Part shown: one piece after another, positions 6,283 through 26,933 of the stretch
How the letters are laid out: every line of letters starts with the position of its first letter
Numbering within the stretch: position 1 is the first letter of the stretch
IMG/VR virus record: IMGVR_UViG_3300031539_000112
Span: 1-40,590 of that record
Reading direction: 5' to 3' (one strand)
Length of the DNA stretch: 40,590 nucleotides
From: a virus
Notes under the pieces: generated by a model
Told to the model about the DNA's origin: nothing
What the model saw: only the letters and a program-made list of their open reading frames with translations
The model's database searches: none
Made by a program: the position numbers and the translations under genes

Positions 6283-7203
6283 ATGGCTTATATAAATGAT
6301 TATGCATATTACGCAAATTCAGGTGCAATACCTGAAGACAAGAACTGGGGATCATACCAATACGTTTCATTAAATGATGTTGTCAATAATTTCATGTTGA
6401 TGTATCAAGGAAATCACGAGTTAATTAATAACCTTAATAGATACCAAGTTTTATTTCATGCTAAAAGAGGGATTCAAGAATTGAATTACGATGCAATGAA
6501 AGAAGTTAAAGTTTTACAATTAGATTTAGATGACAATTTAAGATTTATATTACCATCTGATTATGTAAACTGGGTAAGAATATCACAATTTTTAAATGGT
6601 GTATTATATCCATTAACTGAGAATATACAAACAGGTTGGGCTACAACTTATCTTCAAGACAATAATTCTAAAATTTTATACGATCAAGATGGAAATGTTT
6701 TAAAACCACAGTTTTCTCAAGTAGATACTTCGTTTACTAGTGGCGCTAAAACTATTTATTTAAACGAAAGCAGTGCCTACAATACCCAATCAGGGTGGAA
6801 TGTAGATGGACGTTGGTATTTTGATTTTGCGGTGGGCGCAAGATTTGGATTAAACACCGAAACAGCAAATGCAAATCCTACGTTTAGTATAGACAAACAA
6901 AGAGGAGTTATAAATTTTAGCTCTATAGGTGGAGGCGCATCAGTTGTCGTGGAATATATATCAGACGGAATGGAGCAAGGGGAAGACGGAAGTATAAGTG
7001 TTAATAAATTATTTGAAGAATATTTATATGCGTATGTCAGGTATTCTCTTTTAAATGGTAGATTAGGTGTACAAGAATATGTTGTAAACAGAGCAAGAAA
7101 AGACAAATCATCATTGTTAAGAAATGCGAAAATTAGATTAAGTAATATTCACCCTGGTCGTCTTTTAATGAATATGAGAGGACAGGATAAATGGTTAAAG
7201 TAA
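6283..7203 (+). CDS. Tail tube / ring protein (gp4- or gp11-like position)
   Basis: A 306-aa protein starting 3 bases after the previous stop. It has N-terminal YVSLNDVVNNFMLMYQGNHELINNLNRYQVLFHAKRGIQELNYDAMKEVKVLQLDLDDN, then LRFILPSDYVNWVRIS. This is typical of the tail-tubular-A/P22 gp4-like proteins of crAss-like and marine podoviruses. The C-terminal part (GVINFSSIGGGASVVVEYISDGME, then a helix with RYSLLNGRLGVQEYVVNRARKDKSS) resembles the same family. It would form a ring in the short tail between adaptor and nozzle, and its gene directly precedes the nozzle gene. Confidence 0.7.
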   Translation: MAYINDYAYYANSGAIPEDKNWGSYQYVSLNDVVNNFMLMYQGNHELINNLNRYQVLFHAKRGIQELNYDAMKEVKVLQLDLDDNLRFILPSDYVNWVRISQFLNGVLYPLTENIQTGWATTYLQDNNSKILYDQDGNVLKPQFSQVDTSFTSGAKTIYLNESSAYNTQSGWNVDGRWYFDFAVGARFGLNTETANANPTFSIDKQRGVINFSSIGGGASVVVEYISDGMEQGEDGSISVNKLFEEYLYAYVRYSLLNGRLGVQEYVVNRARKDKSSLLRNAKIRLSNIHPGRLLMNMRGQDKWLK

Positions 7204-7204
7204 G

Positions 7205-10200
7205 ATGCCAATAGTAAATACAAATTTTATTGCAGGTAGAATGAATAAAAGCGTGGATGAACGATTAGTTCCTCCAGGTGAATATATAAATGCAATTAAT
7301 GTTAGATTAGGGTCAACAGAAACTACTGAGGTAGGAGCTGTAGAAAACTCTAAAGGAAACACGCAGCTTACTACATTATCTTTTGGCGGCCAAAATTTGT
7401 CTGACAATGCTATTTGTATTGGAGCTTATGAAGATGGGGTTAAAGAAACTATTTATTGGTTTATCCATGATTCTAATAATCCAGTTATAGGTGGTAGGTT
7501 AGATTTAATAGTTTCATTTAATATTCAATCTCAAGCTATAACATATCATGTTACTAGTAGACAGGTTTTAAATTTTGATCCTAAATTTTTAATTACAGGT
7601 GTAAATAAGATAGAAGATTTATTATTTTGGACAGATGACAAAAATCCTCCTAGAAAAATAAATGTAACACAAAATTATCCTGATCCCGTTGGAATGAATG
7701 AGGGGATAAAGGAGACAGATATAAGTGTTATTTTAAAACCACCAGGCTTTGGTGCTATAGATACATTATCAGCACCAGCGGTAACATTACTTGATGTTCC
7801 AGGTCAAGAAAATTATATAAATACTAGATTTATAACTTTCGCCTATAGATATAGGTATATTAACAATGAATATAGTGCTACATCATTATTTTCTGTTGCA
7901 GCATTTCAACCTGGGCCTTTTGAATTTGATATAAACAACTTCAATAATGCTTCAATGACTAACACTTACAATTCAGCTGAAGTTCAATTTGAAACAGGCT
8001 CTAGTAAAGTGATTGAAGTAGATTTATTATTTAAACCTAGTAATAGTAATTCTATTTATGTAATAGAAAGATTTGTAAAAAAAGATTATGGATGGGGAGA
8101 CAACACAAAACAAACTTATACGTTTACAAATAGTAAAATATATACAGTTATTGGGTCAGATGAGTTGTTAAGACTATATGATAACGTTCCTAAAATAGCT
8201 AAAGCTCAAACAATACAGGGCAATAGGCTTATTTACGGAAACTATACTGATGGGTATGACATAATAAATAGTTCTGGTCAAGATATAGCTATTAATTTCA
8301 CAACATCTTTAATAACTAAGGATTTATTATTTGAAGATTTAGCAGAGCCTGCTTTGTCTACAGGAGAAGTTTACACAATAAATCCAAATACTACTACAAC
8401 TATTCAAAACTCTAAAATTAGTTTTGATTTAACAGAGCAAGCTGGAAAATTATTGTCTGGAACCTCTATATCGTTTACGCTTTCTATTGAACATTCTCAA
8501 TTAAATGGAGATACAGCAGGAGTGTGTTATGATTCAGCGTTTAACAATATTCCGTTTGAATTAAGAATAATATTTCCTATAAACCAAACTTATACTTCTG
8601 TATATGAAATGGTAAACTCAGCTGCTTTTGCGGAGCGTGTTGGAACTGTATTAAATACAAATTTTCAACCATTAGCTACTTCAGCTGACGGAACTTCATT
8701 AACAGATTTATTTAACACTGTGACTATAGTTCCTATTAACTGTGTGTTTACAAAAGCTAATAGTAGTATTGATTCTCAAACTCAACAAGGGTTTAGAATA
8801 GGATCATCTCCAGGATCAAATATTTTTTCTTTACAAATTTTAGCAATGAAATATGTAGACAATCCACAGACAACGGATGTTTATGAATATTTCCGATTTT
8901 CTGGAGGTCAAGGCACCTTTACCTCTAGTCAAGATACATCTTCACTACACAGTAATAGAGATTATGAAACGGGTATTGTCTACATGGATGAATACGGAAG
9001 AGCTTCTACTGTATTGGTATCTGAATTTAATACAACTTTTGTTCCTCCATCGGCATCTGTAGATCAAAACAAGATTAAAGTTAATATAGAGAATTATCCT
9101 CCAGCATGGGCTACAAGATATAAATTTGTTTTAAAACCTAGTGAAGGTGGATATGAGACTATATATTCTAATTTTTATTATCAAAGCTCTAGCACTAGAG
9201 TTATATATTTTAAACTAGAGGGAGATAATCAAAATAAAGTACAAAAAGGAGATATATTAATAATCAAAAGAGATGCTAACGGGCCTATAAATAGAGAGGT
9301 TACATGTCAAGTTTTAGATGTTTCAGCGGAATCTTCAAATTTTTTAGAAGACGAAGGGGAGGCACCATTTGAGTCAAACCAATTAGCTGGATTATATATG
9401 CAAATTAGAGCTCAAAACTTTAGCATTAATTTAGACGAATATGCCGTGATTGATGAAGGTGAAATTAAAGAGCAAGGGAGCGACAGAACATATTGTAATC
9501 CTTTTTTACAATATCCTGCCTTTACTACAGACCCAGATACAGCTGCAACCACTAATTATACAATTCCAGCACAATCTAGTATACAAATGAAATGGAGGAT
9601 AGGAAGGTTTGACAGTGGGTGTGATGGTATTGAATATAAATGGAATCAAGATTATGTAGCTTCTAAAAATTATGATGATTTACACGCTTGGTTTGTTGGT
9701 GACTTCATAAATCCAGCTGTAGGACAAGTGATTGACGATGGTGGTGGAAACTTTCAAAATCCTGTATTTATCAGCACTATAGCTGCAAGTGGAGCGGCAG
9801 TTCAATGTCCAGATCCATGGACTCCAAGCTTTCAGTTTTGGCAAGCAACTCCGGGAGATACAGCATCTCCATTATATCTAGCCTGTAGAAGTGGAGTTAT
9901 TGCGTGTTCAGCAGGAACGTGGTTTATAGAAGCCGAGATTGTTGTAGCAAGAGCTAATAACTTAGTTGTATGGGAAACAGAGCCAGCTGATGCTGATCCT
10001 AATTTATTCTATGATTCTTCTGAATCTTATGATATTATAGGCGGTTTTCATAGAGGCGGCAATGGTGACGGGGATCAGGCTCAAACTGCATCTCAAGACG
10101 CTATAGTGACGTTGCCATTTTTTAATTGTTATACTTTTGGAAATGGCGTTGAAAGTTATAAAATATTAGACGCATTAGATGGTCAAGCTGTAAATTTAGG

Positions 10201-12373
10201 TGAGCGAGTGCTAGCTGTGTCTAAAGAAGATTATAAAGAAGCTGACAGATTTGCTGAACTTACATACAGTGGAATATACAGCAGTAATTCAAACTTAAAT
10301 AATTTAAATGAATTTAATTTAGGTTTAGTTAATTATAAAGACTTAGAAACAAGCTTTGGCCCTATAATGAAATTACATTCAAGAGAAACTGATATTCTTG
10401 TCTTACAAGAAGACAAGATTAGCTATGTATTGACAGGTAAAAACCTTATAAGCGATTCAACGGGTGGAGGAATTATTGCTTCCGTACCTCAGGTGTTAGG
10501 AACTCAAATAGCTAGAATAGAAGAATATGGTATAAGCTATAACCCAGAAAGTTTTAGTTCGTATGGGTATGACATGTATTTTACAGACGCTAAAAGATCA
10601 GCCGTTATTAAACTAAAAGGCACGTCCCCTAACAATGATGCTTTAGAAGTTATATCTAACAAAGGTATGAGATCTTATTTTAGAGATCAATTTGCCGGTC
10701 AATTAAATACACAAAAATTAGGGTCTTATGATCCATACATGGATGAATATGTGTTAAGCACAAATACAACAAGCGTTCCATTGCCGCCGGTAATTATGCC
10801 TTGTGGCACACAAAAGTCTTTAGTAAATTCAATAAGTCAACACGACTATACTATTGAGTTAGGAAGTGTGATAGGAAATGTAGTAATTAATTATACTATT
10901 AATAGCGGAACAATGAGTGTTGCAGTTTCTTGGGATGGAATTCAAGTGGCTTCAGTTACAAATGCAACCACTAGTGGTACATTAAATTTTGATAAAACTA
11001 AAAATTCTCCTACTACAGCCATTATAAGTATTACACCAAACCCAACTGTAAGCTATGATTTAACTGTAGATTGTCCTACACAGAAAGCGCTTACTATAAT
11101 ACAAATAGGATTAAATTCAAATGAAGATGATGGTAAGTTTATTCATAATGAATTTAGATGGAACGACGCTTTGGTTACGAGTCCACTAGCATCAAACATG
11201 ATGACTTTTGGAGTTGACTCACAAGTGGCTTCTCAATATATTGTTCAAACAGGCATTAGGTCTACAGGGGTATTCCCGTATACAGGAACTGATGTTACTT
11301 TAAGATCTAATAAAATTAATTTTGATGATTACAATTGGATAGTAAATAATGATAATTTTGCTTGGTTGTCATCAAACATATTATATACTAATACTAGTAC
11401 TAATATTGCCGCTTTAATAGCAGCTGCTACTATAATCCCGCATAATGATGTAAACAATCCTTCAAGTGGTTTATACCAAACTACAATATCTTCTATTACG
11501 TTGCCGGATGCAAATCAATATTTGTATTTAATATACGATTATAGAACAACTAATTCAGCTTCGATTTGTTATGATGCAACAAGTGAATTGTCAGCTTGTT
11601 GTGGTTGTGGATCTTTTTGTACGCCTTATGCCTCTAGTACGGTTCAATCTTCTATTAGTATAGCTTGTGTACAACCAGCTAATCAAACATATAACCATGA
11701 TGGTTTAAATAATTTGCCAACTGTTGGAGACACAGTATATTCGTCTTCGACATGTGATGATAGTGAAACCAGTACAAAGCTTACAGCAGGTTTCTATGAA
11801 ATAGGGGCTGCTAATGAATGGATTAGAGTAAACGGAAGTGGTGTTGTAATAAGTTCAGGTAGTTGTGCAATAAAAGCATTTAGCTCAAGTATTAATGATC
11901 CTCAAATTGCTTCTATTTGTACGCAAGCAATAACAAAAACATATTATCACTCAGGTGCAGCTACGGCTCCAGTACAAGGAGATTTCTGTTTTTCAGATCA
12001 AGGACAGACTATATTGTCTGATGGTTATTATAGAATATCATCTACTGAGTTTTTAAATATAAATCAAGGAACAGGACAAGTATATGCTGTAGTTACATGT
12101 CCTACAGTTACTTACTATCCTTTTGACACAAAGCAACAACCAAATCCACCAACAGCATGTTATTATACAGGTGCATTAGACGATGTTTATTATACAACTA
12201 CTCCAACAGGGGTTAGTGACGGAGCTGGAACTGTAATATACAGTGATAATGCAGGAACAATTGCAACATCTATTTTATTATTATATAGTGTAGGGTCTGG
12301 AGGAACGCCTAATGTATGGTTTGCAACAGATGGTTCGGGAGAAATAGATGGAAATGGATTACAAAATTGTTAA
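7205..12373 (+). CDS. Tail nozzle / muzzle (phage stabilisation) protein with repeat-module C-terminus
   Basis: A 1722-aa protein. The N-terminus (VNTNFIAGRMNKSVDERLVPPGEYINAINVRLG) and internal landmarks fit the beta-propeller-like stabilisation/nozzle proteins of crAss-like phages (P22 gp10/T7 gp12 role): GNRLIYGNYTDGYD near residue 340, TGIVYMDEYGRASTVLVSE near 588 and YKDLETSFGPIMKLHSRETD near 1042. Such proteins form the tip of the short tail. From about residue 1290 a beta linker leads into two units of the module found in the next genes (TYNHDG... and TYYHSG...), preceded near 1453 by ICYDATSELSACCGCG. The usual C-terminal KGW-SFY region is absent but appears in the 271-aa gene downstream. 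The gene begins one base after the 306-aa stop. Confidence 0.78.
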   Translation: MPIVNTNFIAGRMNKSVDERLVPPGEYINAINVRLGSTETTEVGAVENSKGNTQLTTLSFGGQNLSDNAICIGAYEDGVKETIYWFIHDSNNPVIGGRLDLIVSFNIQSQAITYHVTSRQVLNFDPKFLITGVNKIEDLLFWTDDKNPPRKINVTQNYPDPVGMNEGIKETDISVILKPPGFGAIDTLSAPAVTLLDVPGQENYINTRFITFAYRYRYINNEYSATSLFSVAAFQPGPFEFDINNFNNASMTNTYNSAEVQFETGSSKVIEVDLLFKPSNSNSIYVIERFVKKDYGWGDNTKQTYTFTNSKIYTVIGSDELLRLYDNVPKIAKAQTIQGNRLIYGNYTDGYDIINSSGQDIAINFTTSLITKDLLFEDLAEPALSTGEVYTINPNTTTTIQNSKISFDLTEQAGKLLSGTSISFTLSIEHSQLNGDTAGVCYDSAFNNIPFELRIIFPINQTYTSVYEMVNSAAFAERVGTVLNTNFQPLATSADGTSLTDLFNTVTIVPINCVFTKANSSIDSQTQQGFRIGSSPGSNIFSLQILAMKYVDNPQTTDVYEYFRFSGGQGTFTSSQDTSSLHSNRDYETGIVYMDEYGRASTVLVSEFNTTFVPPSASVDQNKIKVNIENYPPAWATRYKFVLKPSEGGYETIYSNFYYQSSSTRVIYFKLEGDNQNKVQKGDILIIKRDANGPINREVTCQVLDVSAESSNFLEDEGEAPFESNQLAGLYMQIRAQNFSINLDEYAVIDEGEIKEQGSDRTYCNPFLQYPAFTTDPDTAATTNYTIPAQSSIQMKWRIGRFDSGCDGIEYKWNQDYVASKNYDDLHAWFVGDFINPAVGQVIDDGGGNFQNPVFISTIAASGAAVQCPDPWTPSFQFWQATPGDTASPLYLACRSGVIACSAGTWFIEAEIVVARANNLVVWETEPADADPNLFYDSSESYDIIGGFHRGGNGDGDQAQTASQDAIVTLPFFNCYTFGNGVESYKILDALDGQAVNLGERVLAVSKEDYKEADRFAELTYSGIYSSNSNLNNLNEFNLGLVNYKDLETSFGPIMKLHSRETDILVLQEDKISYVLTGKNLISDSTGGGIIASVPQVLGTQIARIEEYGISYNPESFSSYGYDMYFTDAKRSAVIKLKGTSPNNDALEVISNKGMRSYFRDQFAGQLNTQKLGSYDPYMDEYVLSTNTTSVPLPPVIMPCGTQKSLVNSISQHDYTIELGSVIGNVVINYTINSGTMSVAVSWDGIQVASVTNATTSGTLNFDKTKNSPTTAIISITPNPTVSYDLTVDCPTQKALTIIQIGLNSNEDDGKFIHNEFRWNDALVTSPLASNMMTFGVDSQVASQYIVQTGIRSTGVFPYTGTDVTLRSNKINFDDYNWIVNNDNFAWLSSNILYTNTSTNIAALIAAATIIPHNDVNNPSSGLYQTTISSITLPDANQYLYLIYDYRTTNSASICYDATSELSACCGCGSFCTPYASSTVQSSISIACVQPANQTYNHDGLNNLPTVGDTVYSSSTCDDSETSTKLTAGFYEIGAANEWIRVNGSGVVISSGSCAIKAFSSSINDPQIASICTQAITKTYYHSGAATAPVQGDFCFSDQGQTILSDGYYRISSTEFLNINQGTGQVYAVVTCPTVTYYPFDTKQQPNPPTACYYTGALDDVYYTTTPTGVSDGAGTVIYSDNAGTIATSILLLYSVGSGGTPNVWFATDGSGEIDGNGLQNC

Positions 12374-12380
12374 ATAAATT

Positions 12381-13604
12381 ATGGCAACAAGATCAACATA
12401 TTATTTTGATGGATTAAGCTTTGCAACTGCAATAGCTTTATTTACTGATCAGGCTTTAACTATTAAAGCTGCTGATGGGTACTATTCATTAGGAACTATT
12501 TCTAGAAGACAAGTAAACGGCTTGCTACAGGCAGGCGTTAATTGTGCTAATTGTAGTGACCCACTTGTTTTATGTTATGATGCTACTTCTGTAGATGATT
12601 TATGTTGTACTGGATGTACTCCTGGAGCTAATTTAACTGCGTTTAATTCATCAATAATTGGTAATTTTCTTGGCGTATGTGACATTGATCCAACAGAGGT
12701 TTATTATCATAATGGCTTAGGAACTTATCCCGCTGCGAATGATTTTGTTTTTACAGACTCAATAGGAACGACACCTTTATCTAATGGATGGTATCACTAT
12801 ATTTCGCCATCAAATAAATACAGAATCACTAATGATACCGGTTATGTTGCCGATGCAATATCTTGTGAATCTAATTTAACTGCATTTTCATCATCTGTGT
12901 TTTATACAACTTCTGTAGGAGCATGTAGTGGAGTTGAAAACCAAACGTATTATCATAATGGTTCAGGTAATGATCCTGTCACTTCAGATGTTTGTTATTT
13001 GTCTGATGGGGGATCTTTTTTAGTAGATGGATATTATAAAATATCATCAACTCAATATATACGAATAACAGGTGGAGCAGGGGTAGTTAATAATGTAGGA
13101 ACATTCTCATTAGGAACATCTTTTAGTGCTAGCACAACTCAAACAAGTGGGGCTTTTGCTTGTGCAACTTTAATAGGTCAAACGTATTACCATAACGGCG
13201 GATCATCATTACCGGTTGCCGCAAACACATGTTATACCAATCAATGTAAAACAATAATATTAAGTAATGGCTTTTATAAAATATCATCAAATCAATATCT
13301 AGAAATAACGGGTGGAGCAGGAATTGTATCAGCAGTAACAACATGTCCAACTGTATTAAACGACTATGATTCTTCACAAACAGCGACAACATCACCAAAT
13401 GCATGTTTTGCTTCTTTAGGAACAACATATTATCATGATGGTGCAGCAGGTGCAAATCCGGCGGTAAACGATACTTGTTATTTAGATAGCGCAGGGGTGG
13501 ATACTCTTCCTATAGGGTGGTATAGGGCTAATAATATAGGAGGTGATATAAAATACAATGTAAATGATGACGGTGTAGTGCAATCCGTTATATTGTGTGT
13601 TTAA
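12381..13604 (+). CDS. Modular Cys-containing tail protein (repeat array, five units)
   Basis: A 407-aa protein with no enzyme motif. Residues 1-60 are a TYYFDG...FTDQALTIKAADGYYSLG unit. A Cys cluster, LCYDATSVDDLCCTGC, follows near 64-79. Then come four related ~65-aa modules from about residue 97 to the end, with the pattern C-x(5-7)-TYYHNG, a D-x-C-Y or V-F-T-D turn, L-x-x-G-[YFW]-Y-K-I-S-S, then ITGGAG[VI]V. Homologous units occur in the nozzle C-terminus and the next genes. It begins 8 bases after the nozzle stop. A role as tail fibre, spike or surface-binding beta-module string is inferred. It has no signal peptide, as expected for a virion protein assembled in the cytoplasm. Confidence 0.65.
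   Translation: MATRSTYYFDGLSFATAIALFTDQALTIKAADGYYSLGTISRRQVNGLLQAGVNCANCSDPLVLCYDATSVDDLCCTGCTPGANLTAFNSSIIGNFLGVCDIDPTEVYYHNGLGTYPAANDFVFTDSIGTTPLSNGWYHYISPSNKYRITNDTGYVADAISCESNLTAFSSSVFYTTSVGACSGVENQTYYHNGSGNDPVTSDVCYLSDGGSFLVDGYYKISSTQYIRITGGAGVVNNVGTFSLGTSFSASTTQTSGAFACATLIGQTYYHNGGSSLPVAANTCYTNQCKTIILSNGFYKISSNQYLEITGGAGIVSAVTTCPTVLNDYDSSQTATTSPNACFASLGTTYYHDGAAGANPAVNDTCYLDSAGVDTLPIGWYRANNIGGDIKYNVNDDGVVQSVILCV
13032..13408 (+). repeat. Duplicated tail-module DNA, copy 1
   Basis: This stretch inside the 407-aa gene matches 14998-15383 inside the 301-aa gene in direct orientation. A 30-base run is identical at 13032-13061 and 14998-15027. A second run starts at 13095 and 15061, and a 47-base run is identical at 13362-13408 and 15337-15383. 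The offset is 1966 bases at first and 1975 later, so there is a 9-base (three-codon) indel between the copies. Such identity points to recent duplication or gene conversion. Confidence 0.85.
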
Positions 13605-13621
13605 AAATATATAAAAAAAAT

Positions 13622-13637
13622 GTTGTAAATTTACAAC
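13622..13637. promoter_or_regulatory. 16-bp perfect palindrome before the 329-aa gene
   Basis: GTTGTAAATTTACAAC is a perfect inverted repeat in the 58-base gap between two tail genes, 25 bases before the ATG at 13663. It could be an operator, a small RNA hairpin, or a promoter, because the centre contains TAAATTTA, which is close to TAnnTTTG. It shares ATTTACAAC with 4612-4620 in the candidate RNA. Confidence 0.4.
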
Positions 13638-13662
13638 TCAATACATATAAAAACTAATATAA

Positions 13663-14652
13663 ATGGCTACACAAGGAACATATTTTTTAAACGGTACCGT
13701 ATGGGCATCTGGCGTTGCTGGATCTGCAACTATAATATATACTGATGCAGGCTTAACAACTCCCGCAGCTAACGGATGGTATAAAAGTGGAATTGTTTAC
13801 AGACAAGCAACTGGAAGTACTGGGGCATTAGGTGCTTCAGCATCTTGTACTAGTTGTGGAACAGCATTTACATTAGGATATGGATCTACAGCTTTTGTAG
13901 CTTGTTGTTCTGGAACAACTGCTACTTTTTATTTAGACACTACTAGCTTTACAACTGCAACTAGTGTATGGACTACTCCATTAATGGCTACTAAAGCAGC
14001 TAATCAATTTTATTCTTTTAGTTCTCAGAGTAGAAATAAAGTTTCGGATTCTAACTTTGCAGCTGCAACCGCATGTGTTACATGTTACCCAGCAATTGGA
14101 TTATCATTCTCATCTGCCGATGCTGCAACAGCTTGTTGTGCGGGTACAGCAGGGACTTATTACATGAACCAGACAACTTTTGCTGCTTCAACAATATTAT
14201 ATACGGACGGATCTGGATCGACAACAGCGAGCAATGGATTTTATTCTTATGACGCAGGGTCAGGAGGTACAGTAGTTAATAGACCAGTTACAGGCGGATC
14301 TGGAGTTTTAGGAACTCAAGCGAATTGTGCAGCATGTGCAACTAGTATTTCTTTATGTTTCGGAAGTTCAACTGATGATGTATGTTGTACTGGATGTGCG
14401 ACTTTAGGTACAGTAGTAGGATCAGGGATTAGTAACTTTAATGGTGTATGTTCAGCAACACCAGTAAGTACAACTTACTACTTTAACAACACTGGAACTT
14501 ATCCAGTTGCAGGAGACTCGGTATTTACGAATTCTGGCGGAACAGTTGCATTAGGAGCGGGATATTACAAAATTAATACAGCCGCAACTAGCGAAAGCTG
14601 GATGAAAATTACGGGAACCAATGGATATATTGCGGAGGTACAAGATTGTTAA
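13663..14652 (+). CDS. Modular Cys-containing tail protein
   Basis: A 329-aa, Thr/Ser/Ala/Gly-rich beta protein. It contains about three copies of a module type with TYFLNG/TFYLDT/TYYMNQ openings, an I-x-Y-T-D-x-G turn, then NGWYKSG or NGFYSYD. The copies are separated by Cys pairs (CTSCG, ACCSG, CVTCYP, ACCAG, CAACA). Near residue 233 is LCFGSSTDDVCCTGC, matching the Cys motif of the adjacent genes, followed by one YYFNNTGTYPVAGDSVFT...GYYKI unit. It lies between two other modular tail genes and has a palindrome in its leader. Function unknown; a distal tail or fibre component is inferred. Confidence 0.6.
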   Translation: MATQGTYFLNGTVWASGVAGSATIIYTDAGLTTPAANGWYKSGIVYRQATGSTGALGASASCTSCGTAFTLGYGSTAFVACCSGTTATFYLDTTSFTTATSVWTTPLMATKAANQFYSFSSQSRNKVSDSNFAAATACVTCYPAIGLSFSSADAATACCAGTAGTYYMNQTTFAASTILYTDGSGSTTASNGFYSYDAGSGGTVVNRPVTGGSGVLGTQANCAACATSISLCFGSSTDDVCCTGCATLGTVVGSGISNFNGVCSATPVSTTYYFNNTGTYPVAGDSVFTNSGGTVALGAGYYKINTAATSESWMKITGTNGYIAEVQDC

Positions 14653-14670
14653 CGGAATTAAAATAAAATA

Positions 14671-15576
14671 ATGCCAACGCAAGCAACGTACTGGATAGAC
14701 ACCTCGTCGTTTGCTACTACTAGTAACATATACACAGACTCCGGTCTTACTATAGTAGCGAGCAATGGATGGTATAAAAGCGGTGCTTCTTTTAGACAGC
14801 TCTCAGGAGGAAATTTAGGTTCTACTGTTTATACGTGTGAATGTACTACTTTTTCATCATCAACACTTCAGTCAACTTCGTCAGCAGCATGTACTGTTAC
14901 TCAAAGTCAAACGTATTACCATACGGGAAGTGGGTCAACACCAATAGCTACTAATGTATGTTATTCTGATCCAGGACAAACTGTTTTAGGAAATGGGTAT
15001 TATAAAATATCATCAACTCAATATATACAAATAACAGGTGGATCTGGAGTTGTAGCTGCTGTAGGAACATTCTCGCTAGGAACATCTTTTAGTGCTAGCA
15101 CAACTCAAACAAATGCAACTAATGCATGTGCGGCGTCAATTAATCAAACATTCTATCATAATGGAGGAGCTAGTTTACCGGTTGCTGCAAACACATGTTA
15201 TACTGATCAGTGTAAAACAGTATTTTTAGGAAATGGATATTATAAAATTGGAACTGTTGGTGATAATAAATATATGCAAATAACAGGTGGAGCAGGAGTG
15301 GTATCAGCAGTAACAACATGTCCAAGTTTGCTTGAAGACTATGATTCTTCACAAACAGCGACAACATCACCAAATGCATGTTTCGATTCATTAGGAACAA
15401 CATATTATCATGATGGTACAGCAGGTGCAAATCCAACGCTTAATGATACTTGTTACACAACAAGCGCAGGAACTACAACTCTTCCAAGTGGATGGTATAG
15501 AGCTAGCAATGTGGGTGGTGATATAAAATACAATGTAGATTCAAGTGGGGTTGTTCAATCAACACAATTATGTTAA
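14671..15576 (+). CDS. Modular Cys-containing tail protein
   Basis: A 301-aa protein. It opens with one TYWIDTSSF...YTDSGLTIVASNGWYKSG unit (residues 1-50), a C-E-C motif, then three modules of the TYYHTG/TFYHNG/TYYHDG type with GYYKISS and ITGGSGVV/ITGGAGVV signatures. It is a close relative of the 407-aa protein and shares long identical DNA runs with it (see repeats). It lacks the LCYD...CCxGC cluster internally, but the next gene starts with exactly that motif, as if one longer polypeptide had been cut at this joint. Confidence 0.6.
   Translation: MPTQATYWIDTSSFATTSNIYTDSGLTIVASNGWYKSGASFRQLSGGNLGSTVYTCECTTFSSSTLQSTSSAACTVTQSQTYYHTGSGSTPIATNVCYSDPGQTVLGNGYYKISSTQYIQITGGSGVVAAVGTFSLGTSFSASTTQTNATNACAASINQTFYHNGGASLPVAANTCYTDQCKTVFLGNGYYKIGTVGDNKYMQITGGAGVVSAVTTCPSLLEDYDSSQTATTSPNACFDSLGTTYYHDGTAGANPTLNDTCYTTSAGTTTLPSGWYRASNVGGDIKYNVDSSGVVQSTQLC
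14998..15383 (+). repeat. Duplicated tail-module DNA, copy 2
   Basis: Partner of 13032-13408, in direct orientation and in the same reading frame relative to the protein modules. Differences cluster in short islands, including a three-codon insertion around 15253-15270 where KIGTVGDNKYMQ replaces KISSNQYLE. Confidence 0.85.
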
Positions 15577-15586
15577 ATAAATAATA

Positions 15587-16402
15587 ATGGCACTAGCTTT
15601 ATGTTATGACGAAACTTCTGCTTACGATGTTTGTTGCCCTGGATGTACAGATTTAGGAGATTTACAGACATTATCGTACAGCGACGGCAGTAAAGGCTGG
15701 CCTTCATTCTATACGTTCTATCCAGATTACATGATAGGAATGAATAGTTATTTTTATTCATTTAAAGGAGGAAATTTATTCCGTCACAATACAAATTCTT
15801 TAAGAAACAATTATTATGGTATTCAAGGATCATCAAGCATTACAAGTGTATTTAATCCTAGACCAACATTAGATATAAAATTATTTAAAACATTGTCATT
15901 AGAGAGTGACGACAGCTGGACTGTAACAGGTCTTAGCACAGATTTAAATAGTGGTTCAATGGCTAGCGCTTATTTTGAAAAGAAAGAAGGAGAATGGTTT
16001 ACTTTTATTAGAAGCAATGCCTCTACAGTAAACTGGAACTTCAGATCCGCTAATGGATTAGGTTCAGCGTCTAATGTAACTGGGGCTGCAAATGCAACAG
16101 TTATAATATTTACAGAACCCGTAGGAAGTATACTAAGTATAGGTGATGCCATCTATGCTAAGACAGATCCTGAATTAGTAGGGTCAATTACGTCAATGAC
16201 GGCTAATACAATAACCGTAGATGCATCAGCTACAAATGCATATATCCCTGTACAGGGAGACTTTATAATGTCGTATAAAAACAGTGTTGCTGAATCTCAT
16301 GGAGTATTAGGTTATTACATGGAATTTACTTTAACAAACAGCAATACAAGCCCTGTCGAACTCTTTTCAGTGGGCAGTGATATAATGAAAAGTTATCCTT
16401 AG
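15587..16402 (+). CDS. Nozzle C-terminal-domain-like tail protein
   Basis: A 271-aa protein. It starts with LCYDETSAYDVCCPGC (residues 4-19), the Cys motif seen in the nozzle, 407-aa and 329-aa proteins. Next come LQTLSYSDGSKGWPSFYTFYPDYMIGM (about 25-50), NSYFYSFKGGNLFRHN, and FNPRPTLDIKLFKTLSLESDDSW. This segment resembles the C-terminal domain of crAss-like stabilisation/muzzle proteins, though here it is a separate gene three ORFs downstream. Residues 160-230 (SILSIGDAIYAKTDPELVGSITSMTANTITV) look like a small beta insertion. It probably works with the 1722-aa nozzle at the tail tip; the homology is judged by eye. Confidence 0.6.
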   Translation: MALALCYDETSAYDVCCPGCTDLGDLQTLSYSDGSKGWPSFYTFYPDYMIGMNSYFYSFKGGNLFRHNTNSLRNNYYGIQGSSSITSVFNPRPTLDIKLFKTLSLESDDSWTVTGLSTDLNSGSMASAYFEKKEGEWFTFIRSNASTVNWNFRSANGLGSASNVTGAANATVIIFTEPVGSILSIGDAIYAKTDPELVGSITSMTANTITVDASATNAYIPVQGDFIMSYKNSVAESHGVLGYYMEFTLTNSNTSPVELFSVGSDIMKSYP

Positions 16403-16409
16403 AATTTAG

Positions 16410-16417
16410 TATCTTTG
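16410..16417 (+). promoter_or_regulatory. Bacteroidota-type -7 promoter element
   Basis: TATCTTTG, identical to the box at 4739, lies 8 bases after the stop of the 271-aa gene and 9 bases before the chosen ATG at 16427. It would drive the cupin-like and internal-protein genes. A -33 box is not obvious. If used, the mRNA would be nearly leaderless. Confidence 0.5.
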
Positions 16418-16426
16418 TTTATATTT

Positions 16427-16951
16427 ATGCAATTACAAGAAACTAATATTGCTAATGAAGTTTTAGGAGTCATACCTATGATAAGGGGTATGATGTGGGA
16501 AAAAATAAAAGAGTTTCAAAATAAATTAAATGAAATTGAAGGAGCTTTAAATCACACGGCTGGTAACCCGCAAAGTGATGAGATGAAAAAAGCTTGTCCT
16601 TTAAAACAAAACATAGAAGGAGGTTTATATACTAGAGAAATTTTTGTAACTAAAGGAAGTATAATTGTTAGTATGATTCATAAACAAGATCATCCTTCAT
16701 TTTTATTAAAAGGAAAGGTATCTTATGTTACTGACGAAGGTGAAATTAAAACAATTAGTGCACCTAAAACAGTATTTACTAAAACAGGAACTCAAAGAGT
16801 TTTTTATGTACATGAAGATACTCAATGGTGTTGTGTAAATAAAACAGAAGCAAAAACTTTTGAAGAAGCTGAAGCTGATGTTTATACAAACGACTATAAT
16901 GAGTTACCAAAAGAATTAATACATAAAAACAAATTATTATGGCAGCAGTAG
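16427..16951 (+). CDS. Cupin-like virion-module protein
   Basis: A 174-aa protein. ATG 16427 is preferred over the in-frame TTG at 16415, which lies inside the promoter-like box. Residues 60-140 have a cupin-like beta pattern: GGLYTREIFVTKGSIIVSMIHKQDHPSFLLKGKVSYV, then TISAPKTVFTKTGTQRVFYVHEDTQWCCV. The H-x(4)-HP...LLKG stretch and late H-E-D-T resemble jelly-roll metal sites but are not a full metal-binding set. Similar small proteins occur beside tail genes in marine podoviruses. The role is unknown; a tail-associated or assembly factor is possible. Its last 13 bases overlap the next gene, suggesting translational coupling. Confidence 0.6.
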   Translation: MQLQETNIANEVLGVIPMIRGMMWEKIKEFQNKLNEIEGALNHTAGNPQSDEMKKACPLKQNIEGGLYTREIFVTKGSIIVSMIHKQDHPSFLLKGKVSYVTDEGEIKTISAPKTVFTKTGTQRVFYVHEDTQWCCVNKTEAKTFEEAEADVYTNDYNELPKELIHKNKLLWQQ

Positions 16952-19883: not shown

Positions 19884-22800
19884 ATGAACGACGAAATATT
19901 ACAAAACATTTGGAATCAGCTTACTTCTGATGGAATGACTGATAGTGACTTTGGAATATGGAAGTCCAATTTTGCTGGAAGTGAAGAAATACAAACAAAA
20001 GTTCATGCGTATTTATACAAAAACGGTCACACAAATAGTAATATAGAGGCTTGGAGTACTAATGTGGGTTTAAAAAAAAAAGACAATTCCGAACTTACTT
20101 CTCCCGAAGGAGTATTGGGATTGAATACAGATGGGGTTCAAATACCTGGTTCTACGGATGGTTCCGAGGTAATTGACGAACAAATAATTGAGGAAACTCC
20201 AGCAGGCGTAGAAGACGAAGGTTTTGATGAAACTATTTTAGAAAATCAAAACAAATTATTAAAAAACCAAAATAATTTAGATATATTAAATTCTATAGGG
20301 TTTTTTGATTCTAAGAAACCTCAAATGGAAACTTTTGAAGAAGCTAAACTACTTACCTCTAAAGAAGGAGGCCCAGAAAGAAGATACCAAATAAAAGATT
20401 TAGAAACGGGGCAATTTTCTTCTAAAAAAGAATCAGAAATTCCTGAGAATATTTTAAATGCTATTAAGTTATATGAAAAAGCAAATCCAGATGTTGTAAA
20501 AAAAGAAGAAGTATTATTGACTAAGGAGGATTATAACAACTCAGACACTATAAGTTCTGAAATTTTAGCTGAAAACAATGTAAGCCAAGAGGATTATTTA
20601 AAATGGGAGAAAAAAAACACAAGACAAGAAGGGTCTGTATATAAATTTTTTAAAACTCTTTTACCAAGCGACGAAGGTAATCAATATGAATTAGAAAAAA
20701 GACAATACGAAAAAATACAATCCTATAACGCCTCTAGATTAAACGCTGTTACAAACAAGTTATCAGTAAATGCAGCTGCACAACAATTAAGTGTTAATCC
20801 TGAAGAGATAAGAAGGTTAAAGCAAGAAGCGAAAGTTATTCAAAATGAATTTATGAATGTCTATTCTTCTTTAGAGACAGCTATAGATTCCTTTCCTACA
20901 TATAAAGATAAAAGTGTTGATGATGATTTAAAAAAAAGAAAAGATCTATATAATGCTGTTAATGCTGGTGGGGTTTCTGAGATTTCAGCTGGGACTATAG
21001 AGTTAGTGAAAACAATAGGGACAGCAATAACTTCTTTTTCAACAGATGTTATGGCAGGGCTCCCTGGTTTTTTTGATCAAAGACTGTCAAATATAGGATT
21101 TAAAAAGAAAGGTTTTTTAGCAGGACTAAGCAGTGCTATAAAAGATAGTGGAGATCATTTAGAGATGGATTTAGGGGAAACAAAAAGACCGGCTTTTCAA
21201 TCAGGTAAACCCGTTATGTTTGAAGGAAAAGAATTTATAGTTGATGAAAACGGTACTGTCTATGATAAAAATTCAAACATTAGAATGGATGGAATAATAT
21301 CAGATGATAAAATAAAAACCATTATTAAAAGGTCTAAAGATGTTCCTAAATCTGAGATTAATTGGACTGGAGGATCTTTAACGACGAATGGCGTTAGTAC
21401 TTTGGTTAATTTATATGCTTTAATTAGGGCGGGGGGAAAATTTAACAATGCTACTGGTTTAAGTAAGTTTGTTAAGCCTGCTACTGCAGGTAAAATAGGA
21501 ATGGGAGTTGCTTCATTTACAAGTGGAGTGGTTAATAATGTAGAGGATATACGAAGTCAATTAATGGCTACAGGAATGAGTGAAAATGAAGCTATGGATA
21601 TAGCCGTAAATGCAGGTCAGGCTATATCAACTTTAGATGCTGTTTTTTCAGGGTTAGCAGGAAGTAATACGCAGTTACTTACAGGTTTTCAAGCTATAAA
21701 AGATGAAGTAAAAAACTTAGCCATTAAAGGTGGGAAGAAATTTACTAAAAAACAATTAATAGATAAAGGATATGCGTTAGCTAAAGAAAATGCTAAAGAA
21801 TTATTTGTGGAAGAATTGCCTGTTTATTTTTCAGAAAAAGCTATTAATAATTTAGTGAATCAAAAAATAGGTAATGAGGTGTTAGATCAAAAAGTAACTT
21901 GGGCAGGAGTTATTGAAACGGGTGTTATGACAATAGGAGCAACATCATTTTTAGGAAGCACTAACTTGCTTAGGGGAAACAAAAGAAAAGATTTAGTTAG
22001 AACTCTTGCAAAAGATGTACAAGATTTAAAAAAAACATTAGATGTTTTAGTTAAAGAAGGTTCTTTAACTAAGCAAGAGGCTGCAAATGCTTATAACGAA
22101 ATATATAATATGCAATCTGCTGAGTTAAAAACTAAAGGCACTATTAAAATATCTGAGAATGTGGAGGAAGCTGCTGATTTACTTACGCAAAGACAAAATT
22201 TAATGTTTCAAAAAGAAGGTTTAGAAGGGCCTTTGAAAGAAGATATTGATAGTAGAATAGAAGATGTTGATGCGCAAATAAAAAAACTACAACAACGAGA
22301 TTTAGCCCAGGCTCAAGCTATTGTTGATGGTGAAAAAGACGGCGAAAGAACTGTGGAGGTAACAAAAGAAGAAGCTGCGGATGCTTTAAAGGAAGAAAAC
22401 CAAGTAAGATTAAAAGCTGGGCTCCCTGCAATTTTAGAGTCTAAAACTAATATAATTAAAAAACAAGACGAACTAATAAAAGATAAACAAGATGCCATTC
22501 AAGAGTCAAGCACAGAGAGCGTGGATGTACGCCAACAAGCCAGAGATGGCAAAAAAGTGGTCGAAAGAGACGCCACCGGGGCCGTTACCAACCAAACTAC
22601 CCAAGAAAACAAAAGTCAAACAGAAAACAAAGAGACGGAAATAGTTGCTAGAGAAAGAATAGAGCAGCCGATTCGAGTTCCTAAAACTAGTATGGATGTA
22701 AACTTAAATCCAGACGGAAGCGTTAAAAGTATTGTTAAAAAAGGAACTAAAAAGTCCGCCACTAAAGTGGGAATAAAAAAAGCTGGGAAATTTATATTGA

Positions 22801-25800
22801 CTGATGTTATAGATGTAAATGATGGTAAAAAAGCTGAAATACCTGAGGGAGTTAATTCACCTGAAGAAGTTACTGATATTATAGCAAATAAGTCAGACAA
22901 CGTAAAAGAGGTGGCTTCAGCAATAGAATCAGAGAAAAAAAGATTTGAGGAAGAAAAAAACGATAGAAATCAGATGACTGATGAAGGAGGGATAAATGAA
23001 ATAATAGGCATGAAGTTTACTGCTGAAAGCTGGGAACAAAAGACAGGGAATAAGCCTTCAGAAGACGGAGTTAGTTCTAGATGGATAAGTAATAAAGGAA
23101 AAAGTATAGAAGACGGATGGGTAGATGAAACCACGGGGTTAACTTTAAAAAAGGTAACCGATTTTATAAAACAATATCCTACAACGGAAGCAATAAAAAA
23201 CTATCAAAAGGGAGACTCTGAAATATCTAACTCTATTGAAAAATTAAAAGAAAGGTTTAAAAAACTAACAGGACTAGAGGCTACTGATGCTAATATAGGC
23301 ACAGTTATGTCTATTGACCCTAACAGAGAGCCTATTAATGTTACAAAAGAAAAGGCCAGGACTCAAGCTTCAAAAGATTCTACAGACCCTAATGTTCCAG
23401 ACTTTGGTAAAAAGAAAGGTCCTTCAGCTAAAAAAATATTAGGGATAGAAGATAAGAAAAAAATAGAGGTTGATGAAGTTAAAGGCTTAAAAGATGTTCT
23501 TAGGAGGGAGATAAAAAGGGCTAAGGATTTACTTTTAGACCAGTCAAAAAGAAGAGAAGCGTTAGCAACTACTATAAAAATGTTAGCAGACATAGGAAAC
23601 ATAACCACTAAAAAAGCTGCAGCATTAGCAAAAGCAATATCAGGCGTTAATGTAAACAATGCATCTGCTGTTTTACGAGTAACTAATTATGTAGAAAAAG
23701 TATTTCAGAATGCTGCTAATGTTAAAAAACTTTCTACCGCAAACAATATTAAAAAAAGAATTAATAAAATACTAAACTCTAAAAAGATTGAAGCAAACGT
23801 AGAGGCTTCTGTTGAGCAATTTTTAAGAATAAGCCCTGAGCTTGTTAATGATTTAGATTTATATTTAGAGAAATTGTCTGATGTATTTTATAAATTAAAG
23901 CCTACGAAAGCACAAATATCAGGTATTCAATCAGACCTGGATGGAATAGAGTTAATAAACGAGCCTGATGCTAAAATTAAAAAGTTTAACAAAAGAGCAA
24001 GTGTTAATCCTCAAGCTGTTAATATAAATGATTTAGATTCTTATTCAAACACTGCTTTAGAAGAGCAAAAAGAAAAATTATTTGATGCTGAAAAACAAAT
24101 ATTTGAAGATTTAACGGGTTTAGATTCTAAAGAATTTAACCTTGAAGAAATGCGAGAAATGTTAACTTCTTTAAAGCCAGATGAAACTCCAGATTTTGAA
24201 AATTTAAAAATAAAACCGGGGGCAGTAAAAGAGGCGGTAATAAAGGCATTTGATAAGTTTGGAGCTTTAGTTCAAGGAGAGATTGATAATGACACAGATC
24301 CTTTAACTGGAGAAGAATCAAAAATGAGTAAGGAAGATAAAGTATTATTACAAAGTTTTCTGGATATGGATTTAAACTCTTTAAATCCTGAACAACAAAT
24401 GAGAGCTTTAGATGCGTTAGTTAATTATGCGACTAACAAAACTAATGGAGGAATGAAACGGATGATAAAAAATTATGAAGGAATTACTAAAGCTGATGCT
24501 CTTTCTAAAGTTAAAGGTTTTGTTGCTAAGAAATTAAAGTTTGCTGTAGGCGGGAAACTAGGCGCTGAGTTTTGGGCTAGTCAATTATCTACAATAAACA
24601 GTGTATTTGAATCAATTTTTGTTGGTCAAGGTAAGGCTTTACGGGCCGAACAAGCGTCTGGGTTTACAGAGTTAAAAAACGGAGCTGCTAATGCTACTAA
24701 ATTAGCTAATGATATTATTGATACTTACTCTAAAAAATTTATAGCAAGTGAAGGAAGGTTTTCAGATGGAATAAAAAATGTTTTTAAAAGTAAAGCTAAG
24801 CCTAAGCCAAATGGAGAATTGTTTGAGTCTTTATATAATGACATTGAAAGAGGATTATTTTCTTTTATGCGAAGAACCAAAATAGGGACTGAAATCGAGC
24901 AAAAAAATGAATTTAATAGAAGGAAAAAATTAATAGAAGATAGTATAAAAATTTTAGAAAAAGGTGATAGTTCTCAGCAACGTTTAGCGGAAGCTTATCA
25001 AAAAGCTTTTGATAAAGTTGCTAAAGACAGTGAAACTATAAATGATTTAGAGTCTAAAGTTGATCCTATCAATGTAGAAGCAGTGGATTTTATCACACAA
25101 GAATGGGCAAAAAACAGAGAAGCCTTAGATGATGTTTCTTTAAATATATATAATAAAATATTAGGCACAGATCTTAATTATACTACCGACGTTTATACAA
25201 AAGTAGGTGAGACTGAAAGTGAAGTAGATTTAGGGGAGTCAGTTTTTCAAGGGCAACAAAAAACTATTTACGATAAAAAAACCGGGGTATTAATGGAAGC
25301 TACAAGACCAAATAGTCTTCCTAAAAATTCTATAATAGATTTAGGATTTGATATAGCTCAGACCAGAAGTTTAGAAAAAGCATTAACTGATATATATACA
25401 GCTCCAGCAATACAGCAAATAAAAGGATTTGTAAACTCTGAAGGGTTTAAAAAATTAATACCTAATGAAAATGATAGGAATTTACTTAAAGACAGAATAA
25501 AAAATTTCGTAAATCTTAAAAGAAAAATTAACCCAGAGTTTGATCAGGTAGCAGGAGTCAATGTGCAAAAAGTAAAAAACCTAGTTGACTACGTTGCAAG
25601 TTTAGGGGTTTCAAGAGCTTTAGGGTCTATTGTTCAGTTTCCTAAACAGCTAGTTCCTTTAATAGCGACTGCTTGGAATGCGGGGGGAAAATTTACTGCT
25701 ATGGGTGTAAATTTATTGAGAAGATCTGAGGTTCAAGAATTTTTAAATAATAGTGGTTATGCAATTGCAAATAGAGGGGTGGCAAATATAACAACTCTTG

Positions 25801-26933
25801 ATGGAACAAATAAAAAGCTAGAAAGAGCTGCGGATGGTAATATGTCTAAAATTGCAAGAGCTATAGGTTCTTTAAATCAAACTTGGCTACAAAGCTTGTT
25901 AGTTAAGCCAGATAAAATAGCCGCAAGAGGGTCTTGGATTGCATTTTACATGAAAGATATAAAAAAACAGGGTTTAGATCCTGGAAACATAGAATGGGAT
26001 GTAAAAAAACTTAATAAGCAAGCCGCTGATTATGCGCAACAACAAGTAGATAGACAGCAAAATACATCAGATGCTGATTTGCAGGGCAGATTTTTTACTT
26101 CAAAAGCTTTAGGTCAATCTGTAGCAAGAAAAGCTCTTTTTGCTTTTTCTAACTTTTTAATAAATCAAAAAACTAGAATGTATAATGACATTGGAGTGTT
26201 GTCTAGTAAGCTTGGAAACCGAGGAGACAAAACATCAGCTATTAAATCACTTGCTGGGTTAATGACAGAAACTTTAACTTTTAATGCAATGGGATATGCT
26301 TTAGGTCAAGCTGTATCTGAAATGTTTTTTGGAGATGACGAAGATGAAGAAGATAAAGAAAAAACAAGACAGAATAGAATTAAAGGCAGAACGGGTAATG
26401 TAGTAAAGGATTTACTATCTCCTATTCCTTTAACAGATCCTTTGGTTATAAAAGGGGTTAATAAGTTAATATCTATTACGAGCGGATCTGATAAACCTTT
26501 TCAGTTTTTTACAAATGACAGAAGAACTTTTAATGAGTCAATGGGAGTTTTAGGGATTCCTGTAGAAAACGCAGAAGTTTTGTTTGAAATGGTAGAGATA
26601 GGTCTTAGTGGCACATACAACGTTGAGTTTATGGGTTCTTTAACTAAAAAGAAGTTAACTCCTGAAGATCAAGATAGGTTATATTTTTTATTTACTTCAT
26701 ATTTAATGTACTCTACGGGTATGGTACCGGCAGATGTTGGGCCTATTATAAAAAAGAAATTAAAACTTCTTAAAAAAGGAAGCGCGGATAAAATAAAGCA
26801 AGAAAAAAAGAACGTATACACTTTGCCTAAAAAGAAATCAACTACAAGAAAAAAACAAAGAAATACTTCTGCTGGCCCTTCTCCGGCTTTTAGTAATAAA
26901 AAAAATAACAAAATGCCTCAATCACCTTTTTAA
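19884..26933 (+). CDS. Giant internal virion protein, LPD38-like C-terminal region
   Basis: A 2349-aa protein. Residues 1-66 contain two related helical units (ILQNIWNQLTSDGMTDSDFGIWKSNF and KVHAYLYKNGHTNSNIEAWSTNV). Residues about 370-400 and 530-555 are amphipathic/hydrophobic (TAITSFSTDVMAGLPGF; KIGMGVASFTSGVV). Residues 680-920 are coiled-coil and linker. The C-terminal part, about 1900-2170 (RALGSIVQFPKQLVPLIATAW; DKIAARGSWIAFYMKD; ADYAQQQVDRQQNTSD; KALFAFSNFLINQKTRMYND), resembles the large-polyvalent-protein domain family LPD38 of phage ejected proteins. A basic Lys-rich tail ends it. It is probably the largest ejection protein. No RNA polymerase DxDxD-type motif was seen. Residues about 872-912 are encoded by unusually GC-rich DNA. 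Confidence 0.6.
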   Translation: MNDEILQNIWNQLTSDGMTDSDFGIWKSNFAGSEEIQTKVHAYLYKNGHTNSNIEAWSTNVGLKKKDNSELTSPEGVLGLNTDGVQIPGSTDGSEVIDEQIIEETPAGVEDEGFDETILENQNKLLKNQNNLDILNSIGFFDSKKPQMETFEEAKLLTSKEGGPERRYQIKDLETGQFSSKKESEIPENILNAIKLYEKANPDVVKKEEVLLTKEDYNNSDTISSEILAENNVSQEDYLKWEKKNTRQEGSVYKFFKTLLPSDEGNQYELEKRQYEKIQSYNASRLNAVTNKLSVNAAAQQLSVNPEEIRRLKQEAKVIQNEFMNVYSSLETAIDSFPTYKDKSVDDDLKKRKDLYNAVNAGGVSEISAGTIELVKTIGTAITSFSTDVMAGLPGFFDQRLSNIGFKKKGFLAGLSSAIKDSGDHLEMDLGETKRPAFQSGKPVMFEGKEFIVDENGTVYDKNSNIRMDGIISDDKIKTIIKRSKDVPKSEINWTGGSLTTNGVSTLVNLYALIRAGGKFNNATGLSKFVKPATAGKIGMGVASFTSGVVNNVEDIRSQLMATGMSENEAMDIAVNAGQAISTLDAVFSGLAGSNTQLLTGFQAIKDEVKNLAIKGGKKFTKKQLIDKGYALAKENAKELFVEELPVYFSEKAINNLVNQKIGNEVLDQKVTWAGVIETGVMTIGATSFLGSTNLLRGNKRKDLVRTLAKDVQDLKKTLDVLVKEGSLTKQEAANAYNEIYNMQSAELKTKGTIKISENVEEAADLLTQRQNLMFQKEGLEGPLKEDIDSRIEDVDAQIKKLQQRDLAQAQAIVDGEKDGERTVEVTKEEAADALKEENQVRLKAGLPAILESKTNIIKKQDELIKDKQDAIQESSTESVDVRQQARDGKKVVERDATGAVTNQTTQENKSQTENKETEIVARERIEQPIRVPKTSMDVNLNPDGSVKSIVKKGTKKSATKVGIKKAGKFILTDVIDVNDGKKAEIPEGVNSPEEVTDIIANKSDNVKEVASAIESEKKRFEEEKNDRNQMTDEGGINEIIGMKFTAESWEQKTGNKPSEDGVSSRWISNKGKSIEDGWVDETTGLTLKKVTDFIKQYPTTEAIKNYQKGDSEISNSIEKLKERFKKLTGLEATDANIGTVMSIDPNREPINVTKEKARTQASKDSTDPNVPDFGKKKGPSAKKILGIEDKKKIEVDEVKGLKDVLRREIKRAKDLLLDQSKRREALATTIKMLADIGNITTKKAAALAKAISGVNVNNASAVLRVTNYVEKVFQNAANVKKLSTANNIKKRINKILNSKKIEANVEASVEQFLRISPELVNDLDLYLEKLSDVFYKLKPTKAQISGIQSDLDGIELINEPDAKIKKFNKRASVNPQAVNINDLDSYSNTALEEQKEKLFDAEKQIFEDLTGLDSKEFNLEEMREMLTSLKPDETPDFENLKIKPGAVKEAVIKAFDKFGALVQGEIDNDTDPLTGEESKMSKEDKVLLQSFLDMDLNSLNPEQQMRALDALVNYATNKTNGGMKRMIKNYEGITKADALSKVKGFVAKKLKFAVGGKLGAEFWASQLSTINSVFESIFVGQGKALRAEQASGFTELKNGAANATKLANDIIDTYSKKFIASEGRFSDGIKNVFKSKAKPKPNGELFESLYNDIERGLFSFMRRTKIGTEIEQKNEFNRRKKLIEDSIKILEKGDSSQQRLAEAYQKAFDKVAKDSETINDLESKVDPINVEAVDFITQEWAKNREALDDVSLNIYNKILGTDLNYTTDVYTKVGETESEVDLGESVFQGQQKTIYDKKTGVLMEATRPNSLPKNSIIDLGFDIAQTRSLEKALTDIYTAPAIQQIKGFVNSEGFKKLIPNENDRNLLKDRIKNFVNLKRKINPEFDQVAGVNVQKVKNLVDYVASLGVSRALGSIVQFPKQLVPLIATAWNAGGKFTAMGVNLLRRSEVQEFLNNSGYAIANRGVANITTLDGTNKKLERAADGNMSKIARAIGSLNQTWLQSLLVKPDKIAARGSWIAFYMKDIKKQGLDPGNIEWDVKKLNKQAADYAQQQVDRQQNTSDADLQGRFFTSKALGQSVARKALFAFSNFLINQKTRMYNDIGVLSSKLGNRGDKTSAIKSLAGLMTETLTFNAMGYALGQAVSEMFFGDDEDEEDKEKTRQNRIKGRTGNVVKDLLSPIPLTDPLVIKGVNKLISITSGSDKPFQFFTNDRRTFNESMGVLGIPVENAEVLFEMVEIGLSGTYNVEFMGSLTKKKLTPEDQDRLYFLFTSYLMYSTGMVPADVGPIIKKKLKLLKKGSADKIKQEKKNVYTLPKKKSTTRKKQRNTSAGPSPAFSNKKNNKMPQSPF

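Follow-up and report, generated by a model that had tools for sequence, protein, structure and literature searches.

A split tail muzzle gene of a Bacteroidetes podovirus holds a recombining array of cysteine-rich modules that probably forms a receptor-binding kit

The window analyzed here, the whole stretch of 40,590 nucleotides of virus record IMGVR_UViG_3300031539_000112, carries podovirus genes for the portal, the coat, the tail, and replication on 40.6 kb, and across five consecutive plus-strand genes of its tail region runs an array of small cysteine-rich modules. The phage is a relative of marine and freshwater Bacteroidetes phages; to judge from its sequence, it is related to Pachyviridae, Pervagoviridae (phi38:1), and Elemovirus, Flavobacteriia phages near Crassvirales. 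Two module types are distinguished: H, with the pattern TYYHNG..GYYKI..ITGGxGVV, and T, with the pattern YTDxGLT..NGWYK, which are accompanied by a short motif, CC. The first gene (7205–12373, 1722 aa) encodes the tail muzzle, or nozzle. Its core (7205–10756; phrog_14478, E 4e-250) ends at a presumed propeller strand, GSYDPYMDEYVL, a junction placed by comparison with the unsplit muzzles of phi38:1 and Elemovirus, and is followed by a stalk-like region of about 270 residues (10757–11566), common to the relatives with an insert, including the module-free locus L090. Then come the CC motif CYDATSELSACCGC at residue 1455 (11567–11608) and, at the end of the muzzle chain, three H-type modules (11666–11866, 11918–12100, and 12146–12370), the third being weak (E 0.007). 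Gene 2 (12381–13604, 407 aa) encodes one T module (12393–12554), a CC motif (12573–12617), and four H modules (12678–12866, 12924–13103, 13161–13346, and 13404–13598); gene 3 (13663–14652, 329 aa) has the order T-CC-T-CC-T-CC-H, and gene 4 (14671–15576, 301 aa), of which the tail of gene 2 is a paralogue, the order T-H-H-H. Gene 5 (15587–16402, 271 aa) is a separate protein that opens with a CC motif, CYDETSAYDVCCPGC (15602–15646), absent from the close relatives examined, after which the C-terminal part of the muzzle resumes (TLSYS..KGWPSFYTF.., 15671–16402), as indicated by alignment with unsplit muzzles and by a match to crAss_MUZ_C (Pfam PF25729, E 4.6e-11; 43.5 bits against a gathering cut-off of 27). 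A preceding sequence-only reading of this DNA had the frames, lengths, and coordinates of the five genes and the repeat pattern right, and had extended the array over all five; four carry modules, and the fifth protein has only the CC motif, being otherwise the muzzle C-terminal part.

What that reading missed is that the whole array occupies a single insertion point inside a split gene, between the blocks ..YDPYMDEYVL and TLSYS..KGWPSF.. of a crassvirus-type muzzle gene. A single gene encodes the muzzle of phi38:1 and that of Elemovirus elemoA, and in it ..EYVM or ..IYIM is followed almost at once by TTAYS or TWSYS; in the window the same two blocks lie 4914 bp apart, from 10757 to 15671. The array had been taken to begin at 11560, and the cysteine-rich region in fact begins further upstream, the insert starting at 10757. 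Both ends of the gap could be placed in 116 loci, 75 of them non-redundant; every H and T module of the muzzle region in the 116 loci lies inside the gap, the size of which ranges over the 75 from 18 bp (an intact single gene) to 4,914 bp, the window being the largest. Wherever the insert is large, the muzzle is split into two genes, and a muzzle in one continuous polypeptide was found neither in the window nor in any relative with a large insert. The order within the gap is also regular: the conserved stalk (alone in L090), then CC, T, and H at the C-terminal end of the muzzle chain, followed by 0–3 module genes, each of which has a T module from about residue 5 onward, except in L063 and L068, where the second gene opens with the last muzzle domain ahead of CC-T. 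In L071, L073, and L081 the CC motif is the last element of the muzzle chain and T the first of the following protein, whereas in L064 and L065 CC-T lies within one continuous chain; the gene border thus falls inside a CC-T repeat.

The crassvirus muzzle is a tail-tip assembly that is thought to contact the cell surface and that varies by insertions, the known length variation being placed in its crass and IG2 domains (PMC10172136). The placement of the array at the tail tip, as originally proposed, rests on this assignment. The muzzle core and gene 5 of the window belong to the same protein lineage as the crassvirus muzzle (gp44 of phiCrAss001; crAss_MUZ_C), but here the protein is encoded by two genes with one split point, and the break holds a module array and extra genes; the relationship is one of descent and position, not of identical make-up.

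The array consists of 16 units of 54–75 aa (11 H-type and 5 T-type), the highest number, together with the largest insert, among the relatives, which bears out the cysteine-rich repeat array first noticed. Profiles built solely from relatives outside the clade of the window recover 10 H modules (E 2e-15 to 2e-8), including the first two of the muzzle, and 5 T modules (E 8e-23 to 1e-11); because the best single match among 2000 shuffled proteins reached only E 0.002, the modules are not due to chance. The 1603 inserted residues include 63 cysteines; seven other virion genes together have 4 in 4693 residues, and the muzzle core has 10 in 1184. The CC motif occurs, as described, in four proteins, namely the muzzle (CYDATSELSACCGC, given earlier at about residue 1453), the 407-aa protein (CYDATSVDDLCCTGC), the 329-aa protein (CFGSSTDDVCCTGC, with two weaker copies besides), and the 271-aa protein (CYDETSAYDVCCPGC). 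It is, however, not the free-standing joint motif that it was taken for: it forms the N-terminal part of a repeat of about 80 residues, CC-T, clearest in the 329-aa protein.

A shared fold of the two module types, which had been anticipated, is supported by the alignment of their seed profiles (hhalign probability 96%, E 1.7e-9, in a single comparison) and by the same predicted strand order of T and H in both a T-CC-H model of the window (pLDDT 80, pTM 0.57) and a T-D-H model of the relative L034 (pLDDT 88, pTM 0.81). D denotes a third exchanged domain of the middle genes, of about 150–200 aa and predicted to be beta-rich, which is present in L003, L029, L034, L053, L073, L081, and others, and which in phi13:2 (L103, E 2.6e-13), the outgroup in a crassvirus analysis (PMC10172136), lies at the end of the muzzle; by eye, D-H is repeated in L073 and L029. 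Scans of Pfam, NCBIfam, and PHROGs gave, as known domain names for the modules, nothing but sub-threshold noise (RicinB, SlpA, Allene_ox_cyc, and EIIB), and these names were rejected; the PHROGs family matched is the unnamed phrog_21885 (gene 4, E 1.4e-13; gene 3, E 1.6e-5). In BFVD, the T-CC-H model matches structures of unnamed phage proteins, including S0A289 of Cellulophaga phage phi17:1 (145 aa), which contains an H-type module and matches over 85 columns at 2.2 Å rmsd; its membership in phrog_21885 is presumed from its length, and it differs from the present proteins in being a short, single, uncharacterized protein of another phage group. A bacterial origin of the modules was considered and rejected, since the motifs that had brought out 139 viral relatives, used in almost identical form in a single GTDB scan, gave no bacterial match. 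VWA-like regions below the Pfam cut-off were seen joined to H modules (L124:2438–3931 and L125:6005–7498) and in a muzzle insert (L063:2187–6959).

The family searches also bear on the idea that the cassettes carry enzymes or cargo, such as a depolymerase or injected proteins, in place of adhesins. The middle gene of L102 is annotated as a putative glycosidase, and in L028 (6439–7971) a stretch of about 120 residues, read by eye as cupredoxin-like (..HPFRLS..YYYCQYHSGMGG..), interrupts an H module of gene 4, a Pfam scan of 6964–7380 being without a match; but the annotated glycosidase has no Pfam match either, and neither Pfam, NCBIfam, nor PHROGs places any module protein in an enzyme family, so that we regard this explanation as very improbable.

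The array has evidently been growing and shuffling by recombination, a suggestion of the sequence-only reading now strongly supported by the variable number and order of modules, a gene 4/gene 2 copy, gene exchange, and cassette swaps; the modules were neither predicted as unrelated folds nor found in a fixed number and order in all relatives. On a muzzle core tree of 71 rows, built by a quick method and with some long branches, at least 22 changes in module count and at least 27 changes in architecture are needed. Gene 2 consists of T-CC-H plus three extra H modules, whereas the relatives have T-CC-H only (about 166 aa), indicating a lineage-specific expansion. The extra part is a diverged copy of the three H modules of gene 4, aligned over about 690 bp, with identical codons clustered in runs, particularly in the linkers between modules (longest run 15 versus 7.6 in shuffles, P 0.006; the sum of squared identity runs was reached by 0 of 2000 shuffles). 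An assembly artefact was considered and rejected: the copies are about 81–86% identical in DNA over their best stretches, the frames are open, and swaps occur in independent contigs. To judge from codon identities, gene 3 is exchanged between relatives as a whole gene: between L001 and L022 it is 80% identical, versus 47% for the muzzle, 40% for gene 2, 39% for gene 4, and 55% for MUZ_C, and between L001 and L002 the relation is reversed (39% for gene 3 versus 57, 78, 55, and 76%). The 3′ ends of middle genes are swapped as cassettes. Loci L029 and L031 are 97% identical over 6957 bp, then have unrelated middle-gene 3′ ends (with a further D-H stretch in L029), and then return to 94%; L081/L084 and L085/L076 behave in the same way. 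In all three pairs the left border lies among the final codons of an H module, the right border coincides with the stop codon or the next start, and no motif for site-specific recombination was seen by eye at these breakpoints beyond module ends and stop codons.

The candidate engine of this recombination is plausibly encoded by the phage itself. Two genes lie side by side on the minus strand of the window, one for a Sak single-strand annealing protein (34969–35559; PF06378, E 7.5e-35) and the other for a PDDEXK nuclease-like protein (DUF3799; 34218–34976), its presumed partner, and the two would drive homologous exchange. As to other mechanisms, all module copies lie on the plus strand, with only two weak inverted pairs (72–76%) within 7205–16402, unlike a shufflon or inverted cassette; and no reverse transcriptase of a diversity-generating retroelement was found among the larger genes scanned in the window, itself a genome fragment.

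One end of the module proteins is conserved and the other variable. When loci that have a single module gene (56 in all) are paired, those with a core identity above 0.7 show a mean identity of 0.83 for T and 0.84 for MUZ_C, versus 0.46, with a minimum of 0.10, for the C-terminal 80 residues of the module protein. Such a conserved N-terminus with a variable C-terminus is a trait of receptor-binding proteins. Close pairs are under purifying selection (e.g., 56 synonymous versus 20 nonsynonymous codon differences). The C-terminal identities weigh on the alternative that the modules are a structural extension, a stalk or spacer stiffened by disulfides with which the short tail would reach across the capsule, binding being left to separate tail fibres or to the 178-aa short tail fibre. 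A string of similar small cysteine-rich units would suit such a part, a longer crassvirus tail barrel has been suggested to help in crossing the capsule (PMC10172136), and a fibre adhesin gene follows next, at 16415; yet swapped C-termini and unrelated end domains would both be superfluous in a spacer, and a C-terminal identity that falls to 10% between nearly identical phages makes it an unlikely account of the array.

Short proteins next to large tail-fibre genes, encoded upstream of genes that by eye appear GroES-like, terminase-like, and portal-like, likewise contain H modules, with or without D; the L134 fibre gene encodes a Peptidase_S74 chaperone, and in two examined cases (L200/L002 and L201/L113) the fibre-side module is on the same contig as a module-bearing muzzle. 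Further H modules occur in the last tail gene of the Cellulophaga siphophage phi18:1, before the holin/endolysin genes. That the modules recur with fibres and at the tail ends of siphophages favors a role in host contact. Small beta-rich repeats in several virion contexts might instead be generic low-affinity decorations comparable to Ig-like domains, by which virions cling to mucus, polysaccharide, or particles in the neighborhood of hosts but recognize no particular receptor, and the BACON repeats of crAss-like phages (PMC6949934) offer a parallel; still, the copies of the muzzle region all sit at one site of a tail-tip protein, the others lie beside fibre genes, and composition turns over fast, which renders mere decoration a rather remote prospect.

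We therefore favor, with a probability of roughly 0.7, the view that the array serves the tail muzzle as a built-in, expandable kit of receptor-binding proteins (adhesins). The location, the repeat family, the recombination, the conserved start, and the variable end can be read from the sequences themselves, and the best reading of them is that of tail-tip receptor-binding proteins diversified by recombination. The term adhesin, used from the beginning, fits the tail-tip position, the conserved-N/variable-C pattern, and the reuse beside tail fibres, with binding itself assigned by analogy. In the predicted mechanism, the two muzzle blocks would be strands of a beta-propeller to which gene 5 supplies the missing part in trans, each protein would be docked at the exposed tail tip by its N-terminal T module, and the C-terminal H modules (in relatives also D and other domains) would be turned toward the host to bind glycans or proteins on its surface, the cysteines presumably forming disulfides outside the cell that render the small modules rigid. 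The assignment of the flanking blocks to propeller strands is an informed guess from the known muzzle architecture, that of a hexamer with a seven-bladed propeller and the crass fold at the tail tip. Several points weigh against the adhesin view. The T-CC-H model is of only moderate confidence; no solved structure matches the modules significantly in the PDB, either by sequence or by fold, the sole suggestive fold row being a collagen-binding domain (3jqw; E 0.09, probability 0.94), which presumably matches the D domain of L034. PDB chains likewise gave no sequence match for the muzzle, which leaves the placement of the insert on the surface of the muzzle, together with the propeller strands and blade, an informed guess. 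Finally, Pfam, NCBIfam, and PHROGs assign the modules no function, and no proteomic support was seen for the module proteins of this group.

In some relatives, the gap also contains enzyme genes, encoding a GlcNAc-type glycosyltransferase (PF11397), a 2OG-Fe(II) oxygenase, and a hydroxyproline arabinosyltransferase (HPAT)-like protein (25.2 bits, cut-off 23.9). A Pro/Thr-rich run in a T or MUZ_C protein is present at 12 of the 12 loci with such genes (L066, L069, L070, L078, L082, L091, L094–L097, L099, and L100), versus 0 of 100 loci without; the enzymes were sought by similarity to a few queries, and the 12 loci are related (two groups by eye) and do not represent 12 independent events. The sequences suggest that these enzymes may hydroxylate and glycosylate Pro/Thr-rich linkers at the tail tip. 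A more elaborate and tentative picture, which we hold to be possible at best, would combine a two-chain beta-propeller at the tail tip with a series of adhesins in the gap, joined through half-modules (CC ending one chain and T starting the next) and re-tooled by swaps of 3′-terminal cassettes, the gap of some relatives also supplying these linker-modifying enzymes.

Among the neighboring features, a gene for a short tail fibre or adhesin-like protein (178 aa, phrog_12032) follows the array at 16415–16951 on the plus strand. A palindrome, GTTGTAAATTTACAAC, lies ahead of gene 3 (13622–13637) and is a candidate internal promoter or operator; its core, GTAAATTTAC, occurs once in the window, and its position is kept in the clade members viewed. 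After the tail genes, 19884–26933 encodes a cysteine-free protein of 2349 aa with no match in Pfam, and its position suggests ejected cargo or a virion RNA polymerase. A search of Rfam found nothing.

The principle seen here is known; the module family and its mounting site are new, and in the open-licence literature we found no description of either the family or its accommodation at a single break in a muzzle gene. Tandem repeats of BACON domains in tail proteins of crAss-like phages have grown by duplication and transfer (PMC6949934) and resemble the present modules in being tail-associated and in their presumed binding role; in contrast, the modules belong to another sequence family, with no Pfam match to BACON at E up to 1, are cysteine-rich, are spread over several genes, and reside in the muzzle gene. 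Recombining modular receptor-binding proteins of phages are likewise known (PMC10684548), and share with the present system a conserved N-terminus, an exchanged C-terminus, and recent mosaicism between close relatives, whereas here an array of short modules grows module by module in a split nozzle gene, not in a fibre or spike.

One easily recognizable site (YDPYMDEYVL/TLSYS) marks the store of the fastest-changing tail-tip proteins in a widespread group, and this makes host-range prediction and experimental tests straightforward. The finding also brings to light a family of phage modules that has no match among solved structures and is common to muzzle, tail-fibre, and siphophage tail contexts, and it suggests how a nozzle gene can be broken yet still work.

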